Origin: a virus
Strand: one strand, 5' to 3'
DNA length: 28,123 bases
IMG/VR virus record: IMGVR_UViG_3300034105_000267
Coordinates: 1-28,123 of that record
The translations under genes and the position numbers were made by a program. This document shows, piece by piece, positions 3,515 through 15,973 of the stretch. The notes below the pieces were generated by a model that was not told the DNA's origin, ran no database searches, and worked only from the letters and a program-made list of their open reading frames with translations. Position 1 is the stretch's first letter. Each line of letters starts with the position of its first letter.

Positions 3515-3952
3515 ATGAAAACAATAATAGAAATAGCAACCAATAGAGTTTTAGGTGCAACCTACTCAAATGAATGCTTAGAAACAGAAACTTTAATAGA
3601 TGAGCTTTTGCAAGTTCAAATGGTTAAACCTTACTTTAACTTTGACACAAGAGAGTTTTACGATGGTGCAACACCAGAAGAAATTGAACAAGCATTCAAA
3701 GATAAAACACCAAACGAAGTACAACTTTGGAGAGTACGAACTATTTTAAATTTAATGAATTTAGTGCCAACTATCGAAAGTGCGTTAGACCAATTAGATG
3801 AGCCAACTAAAACTGCTGCTAAAAATGTATGGAACTACGGCACAACAGTAGAGAGATATAGCCAAACAGTTTTATTCATTCAGTCAGTTACACAAATGAC
3901 AGATTACCAAGTAGATGAAATATTCCAACAAGCAGAAGCAATACAGATATGA
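3515..3952 (+). CDS. Small protein following the fibre, possible fibre assembly factor (145 aa)
   Basis: This soluble, acidic protein has no membrane segment. Its N-terminal third is beta-like (IIEIATNRVLGATYS) and ends in YFNFDTREFYDGATPEEIEQ, reminiscent of the start of caudovirus tail-fibre assembly chaperones. The rest is predicted helical (WRVRTILNLMNLVPTIESAL, then QMTDYQVDEIFQQAE). It starts one nucleotide after the fibre stop, shares the AT-rich composition of the fibre tip, and ends by overlapping the membrane-protein start (ATGA, 3949-3952). Position and composition suggest it travels with the fibre tip, as chaperone or accessory protein. I do not recognise the family with certainty; the assembly role is an inference from synteny. 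Confidence 0.6.
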   Translation: MKTIIEIATNRVLGATYSNECLETETLIDELLQVQMVKPYFNFDTREFYDGATPEEIEQAFKDKTPNEVQLWRVRTILNLMNLVPTIESALDQLDEPTKTAAKNVWNYGTTVERYSQTVLFIQSVTQMTDYQVDEIFQQAEAIQI

Positions 3953-4296
3953 AATTAAGAGACAGTTTTCACATTTTTATCGGGTTTGCAATTATGTATT
4001 TAATTGGCAGCATTACAGATTTTTCAGAGTTTACATTAGACGGAAAAATTATAGGAGTTCCTTTAGTATCCGCTGTTATAGGCATATCAATAGGATTTTT
4101 TTGGGAGTGGTGCCAATCAGTTATTATAAAATCTTACTTTGATTTTATGGATATTGCAAGAACTGCTATTGGTACACTTGCTGGAGGATTATTTAGCCTT
4201 TGGCTACCTGATATGTTTTGGTTAATGGTTAGCACATCTGTCGTATCAATTCTTTTAGTGTTGAACGATATGAAATACTTTCTGAATAAAAGATAA
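3949..4296 (+). CDS. Four-helix membrane protein, holin candidate (115 aa)
   Basis: Four hydrophobic segments are visible: residues 8-24, 34-52, 69-86 and 88-106. Between the second and third lie E53 (FFWEW), D65 and D68, followed by AIGTLAGG. This Glu/Asp/Gly pattern resembles VanZ-like and DUF2279-like small membrane proteins, which in phages are sometimes annotated as holin-like. Size, number of helices, basic C-terminus (FLNKR) and location about 3.7 kb from the endolysin and spanin-like genes make a holin the simplest reading, but it lies inside the fibre module rather than next to the endolysin. A role in altering the host envelope during infection is the alternative. The start overlaps the preceding stop (ATGA), implying coupled translation. 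Its AT-rich composition matches the surrounding fibre module. Confidence 0.55.
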   Translation: MKLRDSFHIFIGFAIMYLIGSITDFSEFTLDGKIIGVPLVSAVIGISIGFFWEWCQSVIIKSYFDFMDIARTAIGTLAGGLFSLWLPDMFWLMVSTSVVSILLVLNDMKYFLNKR

Positions 4297-7558: not shown

Positions 7559-7821
7559 CGGATATAAAGAATAGAATCATCGAGGCTGGATACAAGGCTG
7601 TAGAAGAACTTATAAAGGTCGCAGAGGATAAGATTATCACTGGTGACGAGACAGACCTTACGGCAGATAAGCTTAAGAACGCTGCCGCTACAAAACGCTT
7701 GGCAATCGAAGATGCCTTTCAGATACTTAATCGAATTGAATTAGAGAAGGAGTTAATCAATGGAGAGTCAAAAACAAAGGAGCCTACAATCAAAGGATTC
7801 GCAGAGGGAAGGTCTAAGTAA
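7549..7821 (+). CDS. Candidate small terminase subunit (90 aa)
   Basis: A small helical, charged protein: helix 1 is about residues 3-27 (DIKNRIIEAGYKAVEELIKV), helix 2 covers LTADKLKNAAATKRLAIEDA, helix 3 covers ILNRIELEKELI, and the tail is polar. It lies immediately before the large terminase and overlaps it by 62 nt, and overlaps the preceding gene by 10 nt. Position, size and helical content suit a DNA-recognition small terminase, which loads viral DNA onto TerL. It lacks an obvious helix-turn-helix signature, and crAss-like phages often have no recognisable TerS, so the call is mainly from synteny. A small terminase-associated or structural helper protein is the alternative. Confidence 0.45.
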   Translation: MELTDIKNRIIEAGYKAVEELIKVAEDKIITGDETDLTADKLKNAAATKRLAIEDAFQILNRIELEKELINGESKTKEPTIKGFAEGRSK

Positions 7822-10036
7822 CGTAGTCCATAATCTTATACCACCTGGTATTCTTACTGGAGGAAATAACAAAAGATCTTGGGAGTACGGGTACAATGAG
7901 AAGTACGACATAGTTGTAATCTCTAAGGACGGCACCATTGGAGAGATATACAACATAAACGGACTGAATATAGCCCTGCCTCTTGTCCCAAATATAGTAC
8001 ATAAAAGGGACGAAAAGAAGGAGAAGCAGTACTGGGAACCAGCAGAATATCCAAAAGAACTACATAATATAAAGTCTATATTTCAGTGGCACACGATGCA
8101 GAAGGACTTCAAAGCTAAGTGGGTTGACTACATAGAGAATGAGTTCGTAAGGCGTGAGGAGGGTATGTTCTTTATGAATAACGGAGTTCCAACTTACATA
8201 ACTGGAAGTCACTATATGTATCTTCAGTGGACTAAGATTGACGTAGGTCACCCTGACTTCCGTGAGGCTAATAGAATATTCTTTATTTTTTGGGAAGCCT
8301 GCCGAGCTGATGATAGGTGCTTTGGAATGACTTATCTTAAGATTAGACGTTCTGGATTCTCATTTATGGCTTCTGCTGAATCTGTAAATGTGGCAACACT
8401 TGCTAAGAATGCAAGGATTGGAATATGCTCCAAGAAGGGAGAGGATGCCAAGGCTATGTTTACCGATAAGGTTGTGCCTATATCGAGTAACTATCCTTTC
8501 TTCTTCAAGCCCATTATGGACGGTATGGATAAGCCTAAGACAGAGCTAGCTTATAGAGTTCCAGCGTCTAAGATTACTAAGAAGAATATGTATGAGAGTG
8601 ATAACTCTAACCTTGAGGGGTTGGACACGTCTATCGACTGGAGTAACACGTCTGACAACTCGTATGACGGTGAGAAGCTGAAGCTTCTAATTGAGGACGA
8701 GTCTGGAAAGTTAGAGAAACCAAACAATATACTAAACGGGTGGAGGGTTCGTAAGACCTGTCTAAGGTTAGGTAGCAAGATCATTGGAAAGTGCCTTATG
8801 GGATCTACGGTAAACGCCCTTGAGAAGGGTGGTGGAAACTTTAAGAAGCTGTACGAGGACTCTAAAATAACAACAAGAAATGCAAATGGGCAGACAAAGA
8901 CAGGACTATACGCTCTGTTTATTCCTATGGAGTGGAATTTTGAGGGTTATATTGATAGGTATGGTATGCCTGTTTTTAGACAGCCTAATTCACCAGTAGA
9001 GGGTGTGGATGGAAGACCTATAAGGATAGGAGCTATCGACTTTTGGGAGAATGAGGTTGACTCGCTTAAGAATGATCCTGACGCGCTGAACGAGTTTTAT
9101 CGTCAGTTCCCAAGGACAGAGAGTCACGCGTTTAGAGATGAGAGCAAGGCATCTATATTTAACCTTACAAAGATATACCAGCAGATTGACTACAACGACT
9201 CGCTTATAAAGGACAGGGTTCTTACAAGGGGTTCGTTTCACTGGAAGGATGGAAAGGAAGACTCTACTGTTGTCTGGACTCCAGACGTAAGGGGTAGATT
9301 TTTAGTATCCTGGATTCCATCGAATCAGCTTATGAATAATGTTATCACAAGGAACGGAAACAAGCATCCTGGTAACGAGCACATTGGGGCGTTTGGATGC
9401 GATCCATATGACATATCTGGAACTGTTGGTGGTGGAGGATCTAAGGGTGCTCTTCACGGACTTACCAAGTTTAATATGGATAACGCGCCAAGCAACGAGT
9501 TCTTCCTTGAGTATATATCGAGACCGCAGACGGCAGAGATATTCTTTGAGGACGTGCTTATGGCGTGCGTGTTCTATGGTATGCCAGTGCTTATAGAGAA
9601 TAACAAGCAGAGGCTACTGTATCACTTCAAGACAAGAGGCTACAGAGCGTTCTCTTTAAATAGACCTGACAAACCCTCTCACAAGCTCTCTAAGACAGAG
9701 AAAGAGCTTGGAGGTATACCTAACTCGTCTGAGGATGTTAAGCACGCTCACGCGTCTGGAATTGAGTCGTATATAGAGAAATACGTGGGGTTAGATTTAG
9801 AGGCAACGTACAGGGATCCAGACGAGATGGGTTCTATGTACTTTACAAAGACTCTAGAGGACTGGGCTAAGTTTGATATAAACGACAGGACAAAGTTTGA
9901 TGCCGCAATTAGCTCAGGATTAGCTATAATGGCAACGCAAAGATCCACATTTCAAGCAGTTAAAAAAGATTCGAAAATAAGTATTAAATTTGCAAGATAT
10001 AATAACAACGGAAGATATAGCGAAATAATAAAGTAA
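7760..10036 (+). CDS. terL: Terminase large subunit (758 aa)
   Basis: The packaging motor: an N-terminal ATPase and a C-terminal RNase H-fold nuclease. The adenine-binding and arginine region is at 144-180 (TYITGSHYMYLQWTKIDVG). A divergent Walker A is at 194-202 (KIRRSGFSF), Walker B is LLIEDES (309-315, D313-E314), and a coupling motif lies near GKCLMGS (343-349). The nuclease starts at GAFGCDPYD (543-551, D548 probably metal-binding), with VLIENN (610-615, E613) as second acidic site; D659 is a candidate third. Length and wording suit crAss-like terminases. The ATG at 7760 lies 62 nt inside the preceding gene, but no later ATG occurs until residue 113, and residues 18-45 (LSNVVHNLIPPG) look conserved, so I keep it. 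The portal gene follows without spacing. Confidence 0.95.
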   Translation: MESQKQRSLQSKDSQREGLSNVVHNLIPPGILTGGNNKRSWEYGYNEKYDIVVISKDGTIGEIYNINGLNIALPLVPNIVHKRDEKKEKQYWEPAEYPKELHNIKSIFQWHTMQKDFKAKWVDYIENEFVRREEGMFFMNNGVPTYITGSHYMYLQWTKIDVGHPDFREANRIFFIFWEACRADDRCFGMTYLKIRRSGFSFMASAESVNVATLAKNARIGICSKKGEDAKAMFTDKVVPISSNYPFFFKPIMDGMDKPKTELAYRVPASKITKKNMYESDNSNLEGLDTSIDWSNTSDNSYDGEKLKLLIEDESGKLEKPNNILNGWRVRKTCLRLGSKIIGKCLMGSTVNALEKGGGNFKKLYEDSKITTRNANGQTKTGLYALFIPMEWNFEGYIDRYGMPVFRQPNSPVEGVDGRPIRIGAIDFWENEVDSLKNDPDALNEFYRQFPRTESHAFRDESKASIFNLTKIYQQIDYNDSLIKDRVLTRGSFHWKDGKEDSTVVWTPDVRGRFLVSWIPSNQLMNNVITRNGNKHPGNEHIGAFGCDPYDISGTVGGGGSKGALHGLTKFNMDNAPSNEFFLEYISRPQTAEIFFEDVLMACVFYGMPVLIENNKQRLLYHFKTRGYRAFSLNRPDKPSHKLSKTEKELGGIPNSSEDVKHAHASGIESYIEKYVGLDLEATYRDPDEMGSMYFTKTLEDWAKFDINDRTKFDAAISSGLAIMATQRSTFQAVKKDSKISIKFARYNNNGRYSEIIK

Positions 10037-12472
10037 ATGAAGGATGTAACCATTAACATTAATCCCGCTGGCTTTCCTAATCAATTTGCTTCAGACAAAG
10101 AAAAGGCATCATACGAATACGGACTGCAGATTTCACAAGCTGTTCAGTATGAGTGGTTTAGGAGGGATAGTGGAACCTGTAAGTTTTATAATCAGTGGGG
10201 TGAGTTTCATCGTCTTAGGTTATACGCAAGGGGAGAACAATCAGTTGCTAAATATAAGAACGAGTTATCAGTAGATGGTGATCTTTCTCATTTGAATTTA
10301 GATTGGACACCGATTCCAATTATACCAAAGTTTGTCGATATCGTTGTTAACGGTATGTCTGACAGACTTTTTAGAGTTAAGGCTTACGCTCAGGACGCAG
10401 TATCTGCAGAGAGACGTAGCAAGTATCAGGATATGATAGAGACCGATATGGTGTCTAAGGATATTTTGAATCAGATAAAGGATAGCTTTGGGGTTGATGC
10501 GTTTGATACAAATGCCGATCAGCTTCCTCAGGATTCAGAGGAGCTTAACTTATTTATGCAGATCAACTACAAGCCAGCAATAGAGATTGCTGAGGAGACT
10601 GCAATTAATACGATACTAGAGGACAACAAGTACTCAGACACAAGGAGCAGAGTTGACTATGACCTAGCCGTTTTAGGTAAGGGAATAGTTAAGCACCAGT
10701 TCCTACCAGGAAGTGGCGTTCAGATTGATTATGTAGATCCTGCTAATGTAGTTCACAGCTACACAGAGGATCCACACTTTAGAGATTGCTTCTACTGGGG
10801 TGAGATTAAGACTGTAGCTATTACTGAACTACTTAAGATTGATCCTACACTTACAAACGAGCAGCTTGAAGAGATTTCAAAGTACAGCCAGTCCTGGTAC
10901 AACTACTACAACAACGCGCAGTTCTATCAGAACAGTCTGTTTAGTAGAGACTCTGCAACGCTTCTTTATGTTAATTATAAGACAACTAAGAAGTTTGTTT
11001 ACAAGAAAAAGGTATTAGATACAGGCGGTGTTAGAATGATCCAGAAGGACGACACGTTTAACCCTCCTAACGAGATGATGGAGGACGGTAAGTTCGAGAA
11101 GGTAGAGAAGACTATAGATGTGTGGTACGACGGTATTATGGTGATGGGTACTAACATTATGTTGAAGTGGGAGCTTTCCAAGAATATGGTTAGACCTAAG
11201 TCATCATCTCAGCACGCGCTTCCAAACTATATTGCAGTAGCTCCAAGAATGTATAAGGGCAACATAGAGTCTTTGGTTAGACGTATGATACCATTTGCTG
11301 ACTTGATTCAGGTTACTCACTTAAAGCTGCAGCAGGTTATATCTAAGGTTGTACCAGACGGTGTGTTCATCGATGCCGATGGACTTAACGAGGTTGACTT
11401 GGGTAACGGAGCTGCATATAATCCAGAGGATGCATTGAGACTATACTTCCAGACTGGTAGTGTTATCGGTAGAAGCTACACTCAGGATGGTGAGTTTAAT
11501 AACGCAAGGGTTCCTATACAGGAGCTTAACTCTAACAGTGGTCAGGGTAAGATAGCTTCATTAATCGGAAGTTACAACCACTACCTAAGTATGATTAGAG
11601 ATGTGACAGGATTGAACGAGGCTAGGGATGGTAGTATGCCAGATCCTAATTCTTTGGTTGGTCTACAGAAGCTTGCAGCGGCAAACTCAAATACAGCCAC
11701 AAGACACATACTAGATGGAAGTCTAAGCATAACTAAGGGATTAGCTGAGGCTATATCGTATAGGGTTGCTGATATATTAGAGTACTCTGACTTTGCAGAG
11801 ACATTCGCTATGCAGATCGGTAAGTACAATGTAAGTCTTCTTGAAGAGATTAAGGAGATATACATATACGACTTCGGCATATTTATAGAGATGTCTCCAG
11901 ACGAGGAGGAGAAGGCTCAGTTGGAACAGAACATTCAGATTGCACTTTCAAGAGACGCAATCACGCTAGAGGACGCAATAGACATTAGAGAGATAAACAA
12001 TATTAAGCTTGCAAATCAGTTGCTTAAGCTTAAGAGACGTAAGAAACAGGAGCAGGATCAACAGAACGCTATGCAGTCTCAGCAGATGCAGGCTCAGATT
12101 AATGCTCAGTCTCAGCAGATGGCTGCTCAGAATGCTATGCAACAAATTCAGGCAGAGACACAGTCTAAGATGATGATCAAGCAGGCAGAGATTGGATACG
12201 AGATAGAGAAGATGAAGTCTGAGGCTCAGCTTAAGATGGAGCTTATGAATATTGAGTATCAGATGAATATGCAGCTTAAGGGTGTTGAAGCTCAGGCTAT
12301 AACTATGAAGGATGAGATGAAGGAGAAGGCTAAAGATAACAGAATACTTAAGCAGGCAACAACACAATCTAAGTTGATTGAGCAGCGTAAGAATAACTTA
12401 CCACCTGTTGACTTCGAGAGTACAGAAGATTCTCTTGACGGTTTTGACTTGGCTGAGTTTGAGCCTAGATAA
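10037..12472 (+). CDS. Portal protein (811 aa)
   Basis: It forms the dodecameric ring through which DNA enters and leaves the head. The start directly follows the TerL stop (TAA then ATG). Typical crAss-like portal text is seen at about 90-115 (TPIPIIPKFVDIVVNGMSDR), in a wing/crown region with DYDLAVLGKGIVKHQF (about 208-223) and VDPANVVHSYTEDP, in a long stem/clip stretch ending SMIRDVTGLNEARDGS, and in SLVGLQKLAAAN. Residues about 664-785 form a Gln/Met/Ala-rich coiled coil (QQMQAQINAQSQQMAAQNAM), perhaps the barrel that projects into the head. The end is acidic (DSLDGFDLAEFEPR). The length matches the roughly 800-residue portals of crAss-like phages. Identification rests on position after TerL and sequence character; I am confident. 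Confidence 0.9.
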   Translation: MKDVTININPAGFPNQFASDKEKASYEYGLQISQAVQYEWFRRDSGTCKFYNQWGEFHRLRLYARGEQSVAKYKNELSVDGDLSHLNLDWTPIPIIPKFVDIVVNGMSDRLFRVKAYAQDAVSAERRSKYQDMIETDMVSKDILNQIKDSFGVDAFDTNADQLPQDSEELNLFMQINYKPAIEIAEETAINTILEDNKYSDTRSRVDYDLAVLGKGIVKHQFLPGSGVQIDYVDPANVVHSYTEDPHFRDCFYWGEIKTVAITELLKIDPTLTNEQLEEISKYSQSWYNYYNNAQFYQNSLFSRDSATLLYVNYKTTKKFVYKKKVLDTGGVRMIQKDDTFNPPNEMMEDGKFEKVEKTIDVWYDGIMVMGTNIMLKWELSKNMVRPKSSSQHALPNYIAVAPRMYKGNIESLVRRMIPFADLIQVTHLKLQQVISKVVPDGVFIDADGLNEVDLGNGAAYNPEDALRLYFQTGSVIGRSYTQDGEFNNARVPIQELNSNSGQGKIASLIGSYNHYLSMIRDVTGLNEARDGSMPDPNSLVGLQKLAAANSNTATRHILDGSLSITKGLAEAISYRVADILEYSDFAETFAMQIGKYNVSLLEEIKEIYIYDFGIFIEMSPDEEEKAQLEQNIQIALSRDAITLEDAIDIREINNIKLANQLLKLKRRKKQEQDQQNAMQSQQMQAQINAQSQQMAAQNAMQQIQAETQSKMMIKQAEIGYEIEKMKSEAQLKMELMNIEYQMNMQLKGVEAQAITMKDEMKEKAKDNRILKQATTQSKLIEQRKNNLPPVDFESTEDSLDGFDLAEFEPR
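12074..12121 (+). repeat. Short direct repeat in the portal coiled-coil coding region
   Basis: The 15-mer CAGTCTCAGCAGATG occurs at 12074-12088 and again at 12107-12121, 33 nt apart and in frame. It encodes repeated QSQQM in the Gln/Met-rich coiled coil. It probably reflects in-frame repeat growth of the coil rather than a separate element. Confidence 0.7.
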
Positions 12473-12489
12473 TATAAGAAAATAATTAC

Positions 12490-12497
12490 TAACTTTG
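12490..12497 (+). promoter_or_regulatory. Bacteroidetes-type -7 promoter box (TAACTTTG)
   Basis: TAACTTTG matches TAnnTTTG in the 40-nt gap between portal and the 174-aa fibre gene, with 15 nt from box to ATG. The leader CAAAAAAAATAAATA is A-rich. No clear -33 TTG is visible. It would start a unit reaching the capsid gene and its terminator at 15986-16020. Confidence 0.6.
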
Positions 12498-12512
12498 CAA
12501 AAAAAATAAATA

Positions 12513-13037
12513 ATGTCAACAATACCATCAGGAACAAGATTTATAGGAATATCTGAAAATGTAAATCTTACAGAAAGAAAGTCAGCTGTTTTAAACGCAG
12601 AGACTCAATCATATACTATTCAAGATATAGCAGACACAGTTAATGGAGGAAGTTCTGGTGTAGTTACATTAGATGGTGATCAAAATATAAGGGGAACAAA
12701 AACTTTTGATAGTATTGGAAAGTTTACAAATGTTGTTGTAAAAAATAGTAATACTGGTCCTACATCAACTGCTTTAACTTCAATAACTAGTAGTAATGGT
12801 ATAGGTATATCCTCTATTTCTAGTGGTAGTGCTGGATTAGGATTAATTTATGTTGGAATACATAATACTACAACTGTTTTCTCAGTAAATAGAGCAGGAG
12901 ATGTTACAGGTAATAGATTTATTATGACATCACCTTTAGCAAATGATTTTGCAAATGATCTTGCTGCTGCAGCAGGAGGAGTACCTGTTGGTGGAATGTA
13001 TCATACTGCTGGAGTAGCAAAAATTAGATTAACATAA
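12513..13037 (+). CDS. Small fibre or head-decoration protein (174 aa)
   Basis: The N-terminus (MSTIPSGTRFIGISENVNLT, then YTIQDIADTV at 34-43) is of a kind found on Bacteroidetes phage fibres and differs from the MTKISQY anchors. A fibre-like LDGDQNIRGTKTFDS follows (about 53-67), then a Thr/Ser/Gly-rich beta region. The last residues, GVPVGGMYHTAGVAKIRLT, are a C-terminal motif common in fibres of these phages. Being placed between portal and capsid genes, it may be a head fibre or decoration protein, as crAss-like virions are known to carry head fibres; that assignment is inferred. The gene is strongly AT-rich compared with the portal, and has its own promoter-like box, so it may be an exchangeable cassette. 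It contains no visible enzyme motif. Confidence 0.7.
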   Translation: MSTIPSGTRFIGISENVNLTERKSAVLNAETQSYTIQDIADTVNGGSSGVVTLDGDQNIRGTKTFDSIGKFTNVVVKNSNTGPTSTALTSITSSNGIGISSISSGSAGLGLIYVGIHNTTTVFSVNRAGDVTGNRFIMTSPLANDFANDLAAAAGGVPVGGMYHTAGVAKIRLT

Positions 13038-13047
13038 ATAAAACAAT

Positions 13048-13410
13048 ATGACAACAGAAGATATCGCAGGGAGGTTAGCTACATTTCACGAGCAGTTCCA
13101 TATGATTCACTGGGAGACAAGAAGTTTTGCAGAGCATAAGGCAACAGGAGGATTCTATGAGTTCTTGCAAGACTTCAAGGATGAGGTTGTTGAGAAATTA
13201 ATGGGGTATAGCGGAAAAAGAATCAAGGGTATGCGAATTGAGCCTATGAAGTCTGGTCAGGATGCTATAGAGCTTACAGACCAGGTGTTAATGTTTGCCA
13301 ACGAGCTTGAAGTTTATGGTGATATTAATAAATATCCAGATATCTGTAATATGGCTCAATCACTTTCGGGTGAGGCGGCAAAGCTTAAATATTTATTGAC
13401 TCTGTCATAA
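13048..13410 (+). CDS. Dps/ferritin-like helical protein, DUF5856-like (120 aa)
   Basis: Predicted all-helical, with the line FHEQFHMIHWETRSFAEHKA (13-32) followed by FYEFLQDFKDEVVEKLMG (36-53). Aligned by hand with E. coli Dps, H21-W22 falls on H51-W52, H30 on H63, D45 on D78 and E49 on E82 of the Dps ferroxidase site, after a three-residue gap. The position of D67 holds Gly34. The sequence also recalls DUF5856-type proteins of marine T4-like phages. Dps proteins bind iron and protect DNA. Here the context, between fibre/portal and scaffold/capsid genes in a late unit, suggests a virion or assembly role instead, and a metal role is open. It starts 10 nt after the fibre stop. Fold is moderately supported; function is unknown. 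Confidence 0.6.
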   Translation: MTTEDIAGRLATFHEQFHMIHWETRSFAEHKATGGFYEFLQDFKDEVVEKLMGYSGKRIKGMRIEPMKSGQDAIELTDQVLMFANELEVYGDINKYPDICNMAQSLSGEAAKLKYLLTLS

Positions 13411-13438: not shown

Positions 13439-14539
13439 ATGGAAAATTTTACAGTGCGCGATATTGGCGCAGGGGAGGAACGTTCAATTCAAGAGATTGA
13501 ACAGGAGTTATTAGACAAGCACGAGGAGAAGTTTAATCAGGATGTTCAGAAAGACGAAGCGTTCATTGCAAATGAACATGTTGAAACCAATGAACAAGTT
13601 GAGACTACTCCAGAGCTAAAGGATGAGGACGTCTTGTCCTACATTAAAGGAAGATACAACAAGGACATCAACTCTGTTGATGAATTATTTAAGGAGAGAG
13701 AGGCTAACGAGGAATTACCTTCAGACGTTTCAGCATTCTTAAAGTATAAAAAAGAAACTGGAAGAGGTATTGATGACTTTATGAAGTTAAGTAAAGACTT
13801 CAGTAAGTTATCTCCAGAGAAGCTTTTAGCTGAGTATTATTCAGCTACCGAGTCAGACTTGGATGACGAGGATATCAACTATATGATCGAAGATAAATTT
13901 GGATACGATCCAGACTTTGATGAGGAGAAGGATATTAAGAAGAAAGAAATTGCCAAGAAGAAAGAGCTTGCTAAAGCTAAGAAGTTTTTTGAAGATCAGA
14001 AGGAGCAGTACAAGTCGCCACTTGAGTCAAGTGGTAGCTCAGTTCCAGATGAGGATAAGGAAGGCTACAGCGCTTACAAGAAATACGTTCAAGACGCACA
14101 GACCGTGCAGCAAGAGAGTTACAAAAAGTCTGAGTATTTTCAGAAGAAGACGGAAGAACTTTTCAACCAGGATTTCAAAGGTTTTGATTTCAACATTGGT
14201 GACAAGGATTTAAAGTTTTTACCTGGTGATCCAGCAGATTTAAAGAAGTCTCAATCTGATCTGACAAATTATATATCTAAGTATTTAGATAGTGATGGGT
14301 TAATTTCAGACGCTGTTGGTTATCACAGATCCTTATCTGTAGCTATGAATCCTGAAAAATTTGCCAAGTTCTTTTATGAGCAAGGTAAAGCTGAGGCGTT
14401 ATTAGATACCGCCAAACAAACAAAAAATATAGATATGGAGGTTAGAACATCTCCTCAATCTATCAGCTCATCAGGAGTTAAAGTGAAAAGTATAGACGAT
14501 GGTGGTGGTCGTGGACTTAAGTTTAAAAGTATAAAATAA
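13439..14539 (+). CDS. Scaffold-like protein upstream of capsid (366 aa)
   Basis: It is highly charged and acidic at the N-terminus (EIEQELLDKHEEKFNQDVQK), with a long Lys/Glu coiled-coil region at about 163-190 (KKKEIAKKKELAKAKKFFED). A disordered SSGSSVPDEDKEG linker (about 197-209), helices and a small basic, Gly-rich C-terminus (SIDDGGGRGLKFKSIK) follow. This composition, the absence of cysteines and hydrophobic segments, and the place 18 nt before the major capsid gene are classic for internal scaffolding proteins, whose basic end binds the capsid lattice during prohead assembly. No protease motif is visible, so it is not an obvious maturation protease fusion. The role is inferred from composition and synteny. 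It overlaps nothing and is translated from an A-rich leader (AATTTAATAAATCAAATCAA). Confidence 0.7.
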   Translation: MENFTVRDIGAGEERSIQEIEQELLDKHEEKFNQDVQKDEAFIANEHVETNEQVETTPELKDEDVLSYIKGRYNKDINSVDELFKEREANEELPSDVSAFLKYKKETGRGIDDFMKLSKDFSKLSPEKLLAEYYSATESDLDDEDINYMIEDKFGYDPDFDEEKDIKKKEIAKKKELAKAKKFFEDQKEQYKSPLESSGSSVPDEDKEGYSAYKKYVQDAQTVQQESYKKSEYFQKKTEELFNQDFKGFDFNIGDKDLKFLPGDPADLKKSQSDLTNYISKYLDSDGLISDAVGYHRSLSVAMNPEKFAKFFYEQGKAEALLDTAKQTKNIDMEVRTSPQSISSSGVKVKSIDDGGGRGLKFKSIK

Positions 14540-14557: not shown

Positions 14558-15973
14558 ATGTCAGTATTATCTACACCAGGCTTTGATTTGCAGCCTTCAG
14601 CAGAGAGAAAAACTCTTGCATCAAATTACATCACAAACTTTGACTTCTTGAATCAGTATCTTCCAGATACTTACGAGAAAGAGTTTGAAAGATATGGTAA
14701 CCGTTCTGTTGCGTCTTTCTTAAGATCAGTTGGAGCTGAGATGCCATCTATTTCTGACCTTATCAAATGGGCAGAGCAAGGTCGTTTACACACTAAATAT
14801 GTAAACTGTGTTGCAACAGGGTTTGCTGCTGGTTCAGATACAGCTACAATTATCGTTAATGATACATTAGTACCAGGTAACGGTGGAATTGCATTTAGAG
14901 TTGGTCAGACAGTTTTCTTATCAGATAACAACGAGGCTTCTAAATCTAACAAGGCTATCATCACTGCTGTTGACTATGCAGCTGGAGAATTTGACGTGGC
15001 TTACTACGAGGCTGGTGGTCAAACATTTTCAGCTACTGACGTTGTAACTGCATTTGTTTACGGTTCAGAGTTCAGAAAAGGAACTGAAGGAATGGTTGAT
15101 TCTTTAGAGGCTGATGACTTGATCTTAGAGAACAGCCCAATCATCATCAAAGATAAGTACGCGGTATCTGGTTCAGATATGGCACAAATCGGATGGGTTG
15201 AGGTTACTTCTGAGAACGGAGCTACAGGTTACTTATGGTACATCAAATCAGAGCACGAAACTCGTTTGAGATTTGAGGATTACTTAGAGTTAGCTATGAT
15301 CGAGGCTGTACCAGCTGAAGCTAATTCAGGAGCTGCTGCTACTACTGGAGCTGTTGGTAACAAAGGTTCTGAAGGTTTATTCTACTCAGTTTCTCAAAGA
15401 GGAAACGTATGGGGTGGTGGTAACCCAACTACATTGTCTGACTTCGATACTATTATCCAACGTCTTGACAAGCAAGGTGCTATCCAAGAGAATGTGTTAT
15501 TCGTTAACCGTCAGTTCTCTTTCGATATCGATGATATGTTAGCTGCTCAAAACTCTTATGGAGCTGGTGGTACATCTTACGGTTTATTCGATAACGATAA
15601 GGATATGGCTTTGAACTTAGGGTTTACAGGATTCAGAAGAGGTTACGACTTCTACAAAACTGACTGGAAATACTTAAACGATGCTGCTACACGTGGTGGA
15701 GTAGTTGGTGGTGCTGTCAATGGTGTGTTAGTTCCTGCTGGATCTACAACTGTTTATGACCAAGTATTAGGTAAAAACGCTAAGAGACCATTCTTACACG
15801 TACGTTACAGAGCTTCTGAAACTGAAGATCGTCGTTATAAAACTTGGATTACTGGTTCTGCTGGTGGTGCTTCTAACTCTAGCTTAGATGCTATGGAGGT
15901 ACACTTCTTATCAGAAAGAGCTTTATGTACTTTAGGTGCTAACAACTTCTTCTTATTCGAAGCTAATAGCTAA
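14558..15973 (+). CDS. Major capsid protein (471 aa)
   Basis: It follows the scaffold candidate and begins MSVLSTPGFDLQPSAERKTL. Residues 20-75 form the helical N-arm (FLNQYLPDTYEKEFERYGNR). Residues about 83-170 look like an inserted beta domain (RVGQTVFLSDNN, ITAVDYAAGEFDVAYYEAGG), and an HK97-type core with FLFEANS at the end follows. Length and order match crAss-like capsid proteins. Codon use is distinctive: many CGT, GCT, GGT and TTA codons compared with the AGA/AGG-rich genes around it, as expected for the most abundant virion protein. The leader TTAAAAAATTTAAAAA is very A-rich, suited to strong initiation in Bacteroidetes. An intrinsic terminator follows 12 nt after the stop. HK97 fold itself is inferred from the family. 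Confidence 0.9.
   Translation: MSVLSTPGFDLQPSAERKTLASNYITNFDFLNQYLPDTYEKEFERYGNRSVASFLRSVGAEMPSISDLIKWAEQGRLHTKYVNCVATGFAAGSDTATIIVNDTLVPGNGGIAFRVGQTVFLSDNNEASKSNKAIITAVDYAAGEFDVAYYEAGGQTFSATDVVTAFVYGSEFRKGTEGMVDSLEADDLILENSPIIIKDKYAVSGSDMAQIGWVEVTSENGATGYLWYIKSEHETRLRFEDYLELAMIEAVPAEANSGAAATTGAVGNKGSEGLFYSVSQRGNVWGGGNPTTLSDFDTIIQRLDKQGAIQENVLFVNRQFSFDIDDMLAAQNSYGAGGTSYGLFDNDKDMALNLGFTGFRRGYDFYKTDWKYLNDAATRGGVVGGAVNGVLVPAGSTTVYDQVLGKNAKRPFLHVRYRASETEDRRYKTWITGSAGGASNSSLDAMEVHFLSERALCTLGANNFFLFEANS

Follow-up and report, generated by a model that had tools for sequence, protein, structure and literature searches.

A short open reading frame between the head genes of a virus raises the question of what a Dps-like protein might be doing there. 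The stretch of DNA analysed (the window) comprises the 28,123 nt of IMG/VR record IMGVR_UViG_3300034105_000267. From the sequence alone, an earlier note had suggested that 13048-13410 encodes a Dps-like protein with four of the five ferroxidase ligand positions. We asked to which family the product belongs, how it is related to Dps and where it may act.

The open reading frame belongs to DUF5856

The reading frame opens with ATG at 13048, its stop codon ends at 13410 and its product has 120 aa. It matches Pfam PF19174 (DUF5856) with 51.9 bits at a cut-off of 34.6, and PHROG 858 with E=9e-14. Judged by these profile matches, it is a real gene of DUF5856, the family of phage T4 RI.-1. The features discussed are listed in Table 1.

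Table 1. Coordinates of the DUF5856 gene, its key codons and its neighbours in the window.
Feature	Position	Strand	Basis or remark
Terminase large subunit (TerL) gene	7760..10036	+	phrog_6681, E=2.8e-180
Portal protein gene	10037..12472	+	phrog_6547, E=1.7e-145
Variable fibre-like gene, 174 aa, between portal and DUF5856	12513..13037	+	slot comparison in relatives
DUF5856 gene (Dps-derived, T4 RI.-1 family)	13048..13410	+	PF19174, E=1.6e-13; AlphaFold2; 120 aa, pI 5.15
Codons H18 and H21, end of helix A	13099..13110	+	H21 = E. coli Dps H51 position; NapA/MrgA HxxH alignment
Codon H30, start of helix B	13135..13137	+	= Dps H63 position; invariant
Codon G34	13147..13149	+	= Dps D67 position; ligand lost in window clade
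Codons D45 to E49, middle of helix B	13180..13194	+	= Dps D78 and E82 positions; invariant
366-aa gene, scaffold position (portal to MCP)	13439..14539	+	phrog_16786, no assigned function
Major capsid protein (MCP) gene	14558..15973	+	phrog_13704 virion structural protein, E=1.6e-102; 68% identical to MW202828 structural protein

DUF5856 occurs in considerably more than a thousand sequenced tailed phages, T4 included. Sixty IMG/VR contigs match the window protein; in 59 of these the copy is complete or nearly so, with 63-100% identity, and one matches over a short segment only. Direct matches were obtained in ~970 GenBank phage records, mostly of T4-like phages in which the gene is rI.-1, while the relative from MW202828 matches 1,389 records. 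Among 18 records with the family no second copy per genome was found. A genome-contig scan with alignment A1, which relied on two peptide patterns only and is thus weak evidence, confirmed no cellular relatives, and a Bacillus subtilis control matched PF19174 below the cut-off. With T4 and T2 RI.-1 the window protein shares the profile family, the invariant residues described below and ~28-31% identity. It differs from T4 RI.-1 in its setting between portal and scaffold, whereas the T4 gene is located in the rI operon.

A literature search retrieved no paper on DUF5856. The current label of the family in PHROG 858 and INPHARED, "starvation-inducible transcriptional regulator", is a guess. It is attached to hundreds of T4-like rI.-1 genes, and no support for a transcription regulator was found. 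The name seems to reflect remote similarity to Dps, and a Dps-derived metal-site protein fits PHROG 858 better.

DUF5856 is related to Dps

Two profiles, one of 17 diverse DUF5856 members (A2) and one of 57 members, were searched against the PDB. For A2 the best 14 matches are all Dps proteins, including Helicobacter pylori NapA (4.7e-6), B. subtilis MrgA (1.2e-5) and Listeria Dps (3.4e-5). The larger profile found NapA, CAIP and Borrelia NapA. Both in PDB pairwise and in profile searches, H21, H30, D45 and E49 align unforced with the ligands of NapA, MrgA and Listeria Dps. The register is the same as that of the earlier hand alignment to H51, H63, D78 and E82 of E. coli Dps, and the alignments also contain the three-residue gap between the two His and the Gly at the D67 position (G34) reported there. 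H18 sits one helical turn before H21 and aligns with the leading His of the helix A HxxH, a motif also present in NapA and MrgA; the 2pyb protein carries Arg at the equivalent position. Moreover, an HKAT stretch is common to the window protein and NapA.

Conservation was evaluated in 186 distinct sequences from five groups. Only six columns are fully invariant, namely H18, H21, H30, D45, E49 and Y115, and hence the His, Asp and Glu residues picked out by hand are kept in all of the relatives. The spacing H..H-x8-H-x14-D-x3-E recurs in 185 of the 186. As the pattern H-x8-H-x14-D-x3-E is rare in shuffles of the window protein (87 of 200,000) and near-universal in relatives, the ligand spacing is more than chance. 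Trp22, next to H21, which the note had listed as conserved, holds as W within the window clade only and is Phe or Leu in the other clades.

Position 34 behaves differently from the four ligand positions. It is Gly in all 46 sequences of the window clade, Asn, Gly or Asp in the MW202828 clade and Gln in the Methylophilaceae-phage and far-type clades. T4-like phages have Asp, Glu or Asn, mostly one of the two acids (D/E in the T2, Klebsiella and KP27 relatives, as opposed to the window clade), the DUF5856 domain of Chryseobacterium phage MA9V-2 has Asp and NapA has Glu. Going by this alignment, the fifth ligand is lost or replaced repeatedly, with the other four and H18 unchanged throughout.

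A profile search for Dps itself was less favourable than that for DUF5856: the window protein gave no match to PF00210 (Dps/ferritin-like) at E<=1, and the GAP32 relative reaches 11.6 bits at a cut-off of 24.5. Of the classical ligand set H51, H63, D67, D78 and E82 four are present. The basic DNA-binding tail, a feature of some Dps only, is absent; the window protein starts at the core and contains 13 K/R against 19 D/E. Thus it resembles the Dps miniferritins of H. pylori, B. subtilis, Listeria and E. coli in its four-helix bundle with H/H/D/E in register, but is shorter and devoid of a predicted BC helix, an acidic residue at position 34, a basic tail and a significant PF00210 match. Taken together, the window protein is a compact phage-specific Dps derivative of the ferritin superfamily and not a classical Dps.

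A simplified metal site is predicted between subunits

The monomer was modelled with AlphaFold2 from 57 sequences (pLDDT 97, pTM 0.90). The model is a four-helix bundle of the ferritin superfamily, as anticipated for a Dps-like protein, with helices at 3-23, 27-55, 73-93 and 97-118. Using this model, Foldseek returned MrgA, Dpr and other Dps or ferritin chains at the top with a probability near 1 and E ~0.01. VIA-align gave Z scores of 12-13, up to 13.1, to Dps, bacterioferritin and related chains, mostly over 117-120 residues, a size of Z that unrelated helical bundles can also attain. The relationship to Dps is firm because of the sequence profile and not by Z alone. Segment 56-72, which takes the place of the Dps BC helix at the two-fold interface, is non-helical in the model.

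H30 and D45 are 15 residues apart on one helix, corresponding to ~22 Å by helix geometry. A site using both must therefore lie between subunits, as in Listeria Dps (1qgh), where the ligands are contributed across two subunits. The bundle is thus predicted to form a two-fold symmetric pair in which H21 and H30 of one subunit face D45' and E49' of its partner, with H18 alongside. The protein would accordingly be a Dps-like dimer or a larger oligomer. From the invariance of the residues we infer that the inter-subunit H/H/D/E cluster binds iron or zinc. The loss of the D67 equivalent weakens the claim of ferroxidase activity. Since this fifth classical ligand is missing (here Gly34), the site is most likely a simplified centre for iron (or zinc), possibly single-metal or peroxide-reactive, and not a full ferroxidase centre.

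Genomic setting of the gene

PHROG matches place the gene in a head-gene block on one strand, in the order TerL, portal, fibre-like gene, DUF5856, scaffold-position gene and MCP. The phage is of a Bacteroidota podovirus type with TerL 72% identical to that of MW202828 (Manatee Spring; see Table 1 for the MCP) and is related to Maribacter phage Panino as well as to Flavobacterium and Cellulophaga phages. In a Flavobacterium elemo phage the positional counterpart of the 366-aa gene is annotated as "structural protein".

The closest relatives show the order portal, variable slot, DUF5856, scaffold-position gene, MCP. The slot is empty in four of them (L004, L006, L017 and L018) and otherwise mostly holds genes of 174-513 aa, often for collagen-like fibres such as the tail fibre of L019 (phrog_5073, E=2e-28). 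The placement between fibre and scaffold genes given in the earlier note therefore stands with regard to the head-gene block, but the fibre neighbour is variable and missing in some close relatives. In addition, copies from the MW202828 clade and from the wider clade (63-75% identity) usually lie upstream of groES-terL, from which one to three genes separate them. An MW202828-type copy in L094 is located between portal and scaffold, the P22-like podovirus MW202483 carries DUF5856 directly after the portal gene, and L192 has the order DUF5856, HNH, TerS, TerL.

Some further observations concern this region. The slot fibre genes of the window and of L002, L003, L009, L011, L014, L019 and L023 have a conserved N-terminus, FIGISxNVNLxERKSAxxNAET, and often GPxGPxG repeats; the one in the window is a short version without collagen-like repeats. 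In L024 a 2603-codon ORF ends just before the DUF5856 copy, a setting absent from the other listed relatives. A Bacteroidota -7-like promoter element, TAACTTTGC, is found at 12490-12498, just upstream of the fibre, DUF5856, scaffold-position and MCP genes; across the window such promoter-like sites are not above chance.

Relatives with links to the phage head

In Chryseobacterium phage MA9V-2 a DUF5856 domain (residues 473-572, E=1.7e-12) is part of a 1207-aa protein with a prohead protease at its N-terminus (Peptidase_S77, E=3e-6; phrog_207, E=5.5e-26). The gene (L240:4597-8220) lies between portal and MCP, like that of the window, where DUF5856 is however a separate gene. The window protein is 30% identical to the domain over 116 residues (E=1e-13). 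In the tree the MA9V-2 domain is the nearest clade to the window protein with a support of 0.92, to be read with caution in view of the long branches. MA9V-1 encodes the same protease-DUF5856 fusion, 94% identical in the compared stretch of 578 residues (protease-to-DUF5856 part). Since IMG/VR yielded no further fusions with the MA9V-2 domain and the protease as queries, the evidence for the fusion comes from two phages that are close relatives.

The MA9V-2 polyprotein contains 18 NE[SAG] motifs, compared to a mean of 1.7 and a maximum of 7 in 5,000 shuffles. Its 59 neighbouring genes have 8 motifs of the type hydrophobic/Ala/Ser-NE[SAG] in 13,862 residues. Three of these lie at residues 9-10, as MKTFTYFINE↓A, MKNFFSFINE↓A and MQTFLQTINE↓S (arrows denote the presumed cleavage point), and the MCP contains such a motif at residue 62. 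The annotated internal proteins ipIV and ip7 of phage T2 start with MKTYQEFITE↓A and MKTFKEFINE↓A. The T4 gp21 protease has the specificity I/L-x-E. From these motifs we infer that the NE motifs are sites of a gp21-type protease and that cleavage would free the DUF5856 piece between residues 368 and 577. Besides DUF5856 and its ~18 putative self-processing sites, the polyprotein contains several unassigned internal segments.

A comparable pattern was obtained for far-type DUF5856 copies, which are mostly from jumbo-phage contigs. Five of seven large contigs tested encode a T4-like prohead protease. At residue 60 their MCPs show either YLINE↓A or FLINE↓A. Early peptides with the endings LSE↓Q, LTE↓Q or LINE↓Q are encoded by the scaffold gene and by others close by. 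An extension at the N-terminus that contains [LIVMFYH]xE↓Q within 45 residues is present in 25 of the 27 long far-type DUF5856 proteins (a count and not a probability, as the bearers are related sequences) and in 16 of 298 other ORFs of the same loci. In the AlphaFold2 model of the L205 copy an extension helix (9-25) and a disordered stretch (25-32) precede the four-helix core. Judged by its sequence, the far-type extension resembles a head-targeting propeptide. In the jumbo-phage contigs L254-L256, several proteins whose genes neighbour those of the MCP and the prohead protease have N-termini in common, for example RILxLHESATKxxYLxE↓Q, and probably represent a set of packaged internal proteins.

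A third link is provided by Yersinia phage phiR1-37, whose g280 is a DUF5856 protein (E=1.7e-22) deposited with the note "phage structural protein". The far-type and MA9V relatives share with the T-even internal head proteins ipIV and ip7 a peptide, N-terminal or internal, that ends at an xxE cleavage-type site. The window protein, in contrast, has no N-terminal targeting extension of the T4 internal-head propeptide type, and the 28-kb record yielded no Peptidase_S77 gene; its packaging would therefore depend on contacts with portal or scaffold. The N-terminus of T4 RI.-1, MKFSDFSQSG, is partly like a targeting peptide and lacks the Glu.

Where the protein may act

With a probability of about 0.5 we regard the window protein as a metal-binding, Dps-derived internal head protein that stays with the packaged DNA. 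According to its position it would be made along with the head genes and, by analogy to its relatives, enter the prohead interior. There it may remain with the packaged DNA, and iron binding would curb Fenton damage to the genome. Head inclusion is proposed because of the MA9V fusion, the far-type extensions, the phiR1-37 annotation and the adjacency of portal and DUF5856, the latter seen in MW202483, the window clade and L094. Head association was computed for several of these relatives and is carried over from them to the window protein. On the other hand, most copies of the wider clade lie upstream of groES-terL, and the window protein is acidic without a DNA-binding tail. DUF5856 is also absent from the related phages Panino and an Elemovirus, both of which were examined. 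T4 rI.-1 belongs to the rI operon and, according to PMC6832632, its overexpression slightly prolongs lysis inhibition by delaying its collapse. For the RaK2 copy gp015 the main text discusses only a possible role in host interaction (PMC3622015).

A different place of action is conceivable, if rather improbable in our view: as an unpackaged iron- or peroxide-handling protein in the cytoplasm of the infected cell, DUF5856 could protect host machinery and replicating DNA or sequester iron, and its position among head genes would only signify late expression. The fold and the ligand conservation agree with this, as do the locations of most relatives outside the portal-scaffold interval, including the rI operon of T4. 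True Dps genes of gut and Lactobacillus phages, and Dps or catalase genes of other phages, are likewise thought to act in the infected cell (PMC8008677). The fusion to a prohead protease with its protease-site motifs, the extensions resembling targeting signals, the structural annotation in phiR1-37 and the repeated adjacency to portal/scaffold or terminase genes all argue for the head instead. These same head links, in particular the portal-scaffold position and the prohead-core fusion, together with the loss of the D67 ligand in several clades, could also be explained by the reuse of a four-helix bundle for assembly or scaffolding only, without metal chemistry. We consider this unlikely, as a purely structural role would not require invariant His, Asp and Glu, and five of the six residues fully invariant in 186 sequences are of this kind at or beside Dps ligand positions.

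An accessory function in lysis timing, modulating holin/antiholin action like T4 RI.-1, was dropped as the main reading and appears very improbable. It draws on the DUF5856 member adjoining rI in T4, on the overexpression phenotype just mentioned and on the MW202828 copy, which comes after a peptidase M15 gene. However, the effects are small and stem from overexpression, and RaK2 has DUF5856 but no T holin or RI antiholin (PMC3622015). The window gene itself is located between head genes, many other contexts are head or packaging genes, and the strictly invariant metal site would be left unexplained. The neighbouring "holin" of Methylophilaceae phage P19250A (gene 54, L064:20306-20740) matches HNH endonuclease families (PHROG 144, E=2e-23), and the deposited name is, by this match, probably a misannotation.

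DUF5856 is a known family without assigned function and the role in the head interior is the new part; our literature search found no paper on a Dps-like internal head protein. Extending this role from the window protein to the family in general is tentative, and we hold it to be somewhat doubtful. DUF5856 would then be a bacterial, DNA-protecting miniferritin that was taken up and shortened by phages and has kept the inter-subunit metal site and is delivered into the prohead, by prohead-core fusion, a cleavable targeting peptide or association with portal/scaffold, in order to accompany and protect the packaged genome or to be ejected with it. The evidence supplies the family with a fold and an origin from Dps, with a candidate metal site that is invariant and with a place of action open to testing. 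If this is true, the DNA of phages is accompanied by a Dps-like protein that handles metal. This would be relevant to the survival of virion DNA under oxidative damage, and the long-unexplained T4 rI.-1 would gain a concrete hypothesis.

Elsewhere in the window, 3949-4296 encodes a hydrophobic, apparently multi-pass membrane protein of 115 aa without a PHROG match. It lies near lysozyme-like and fibre genes and is possibly a holin.
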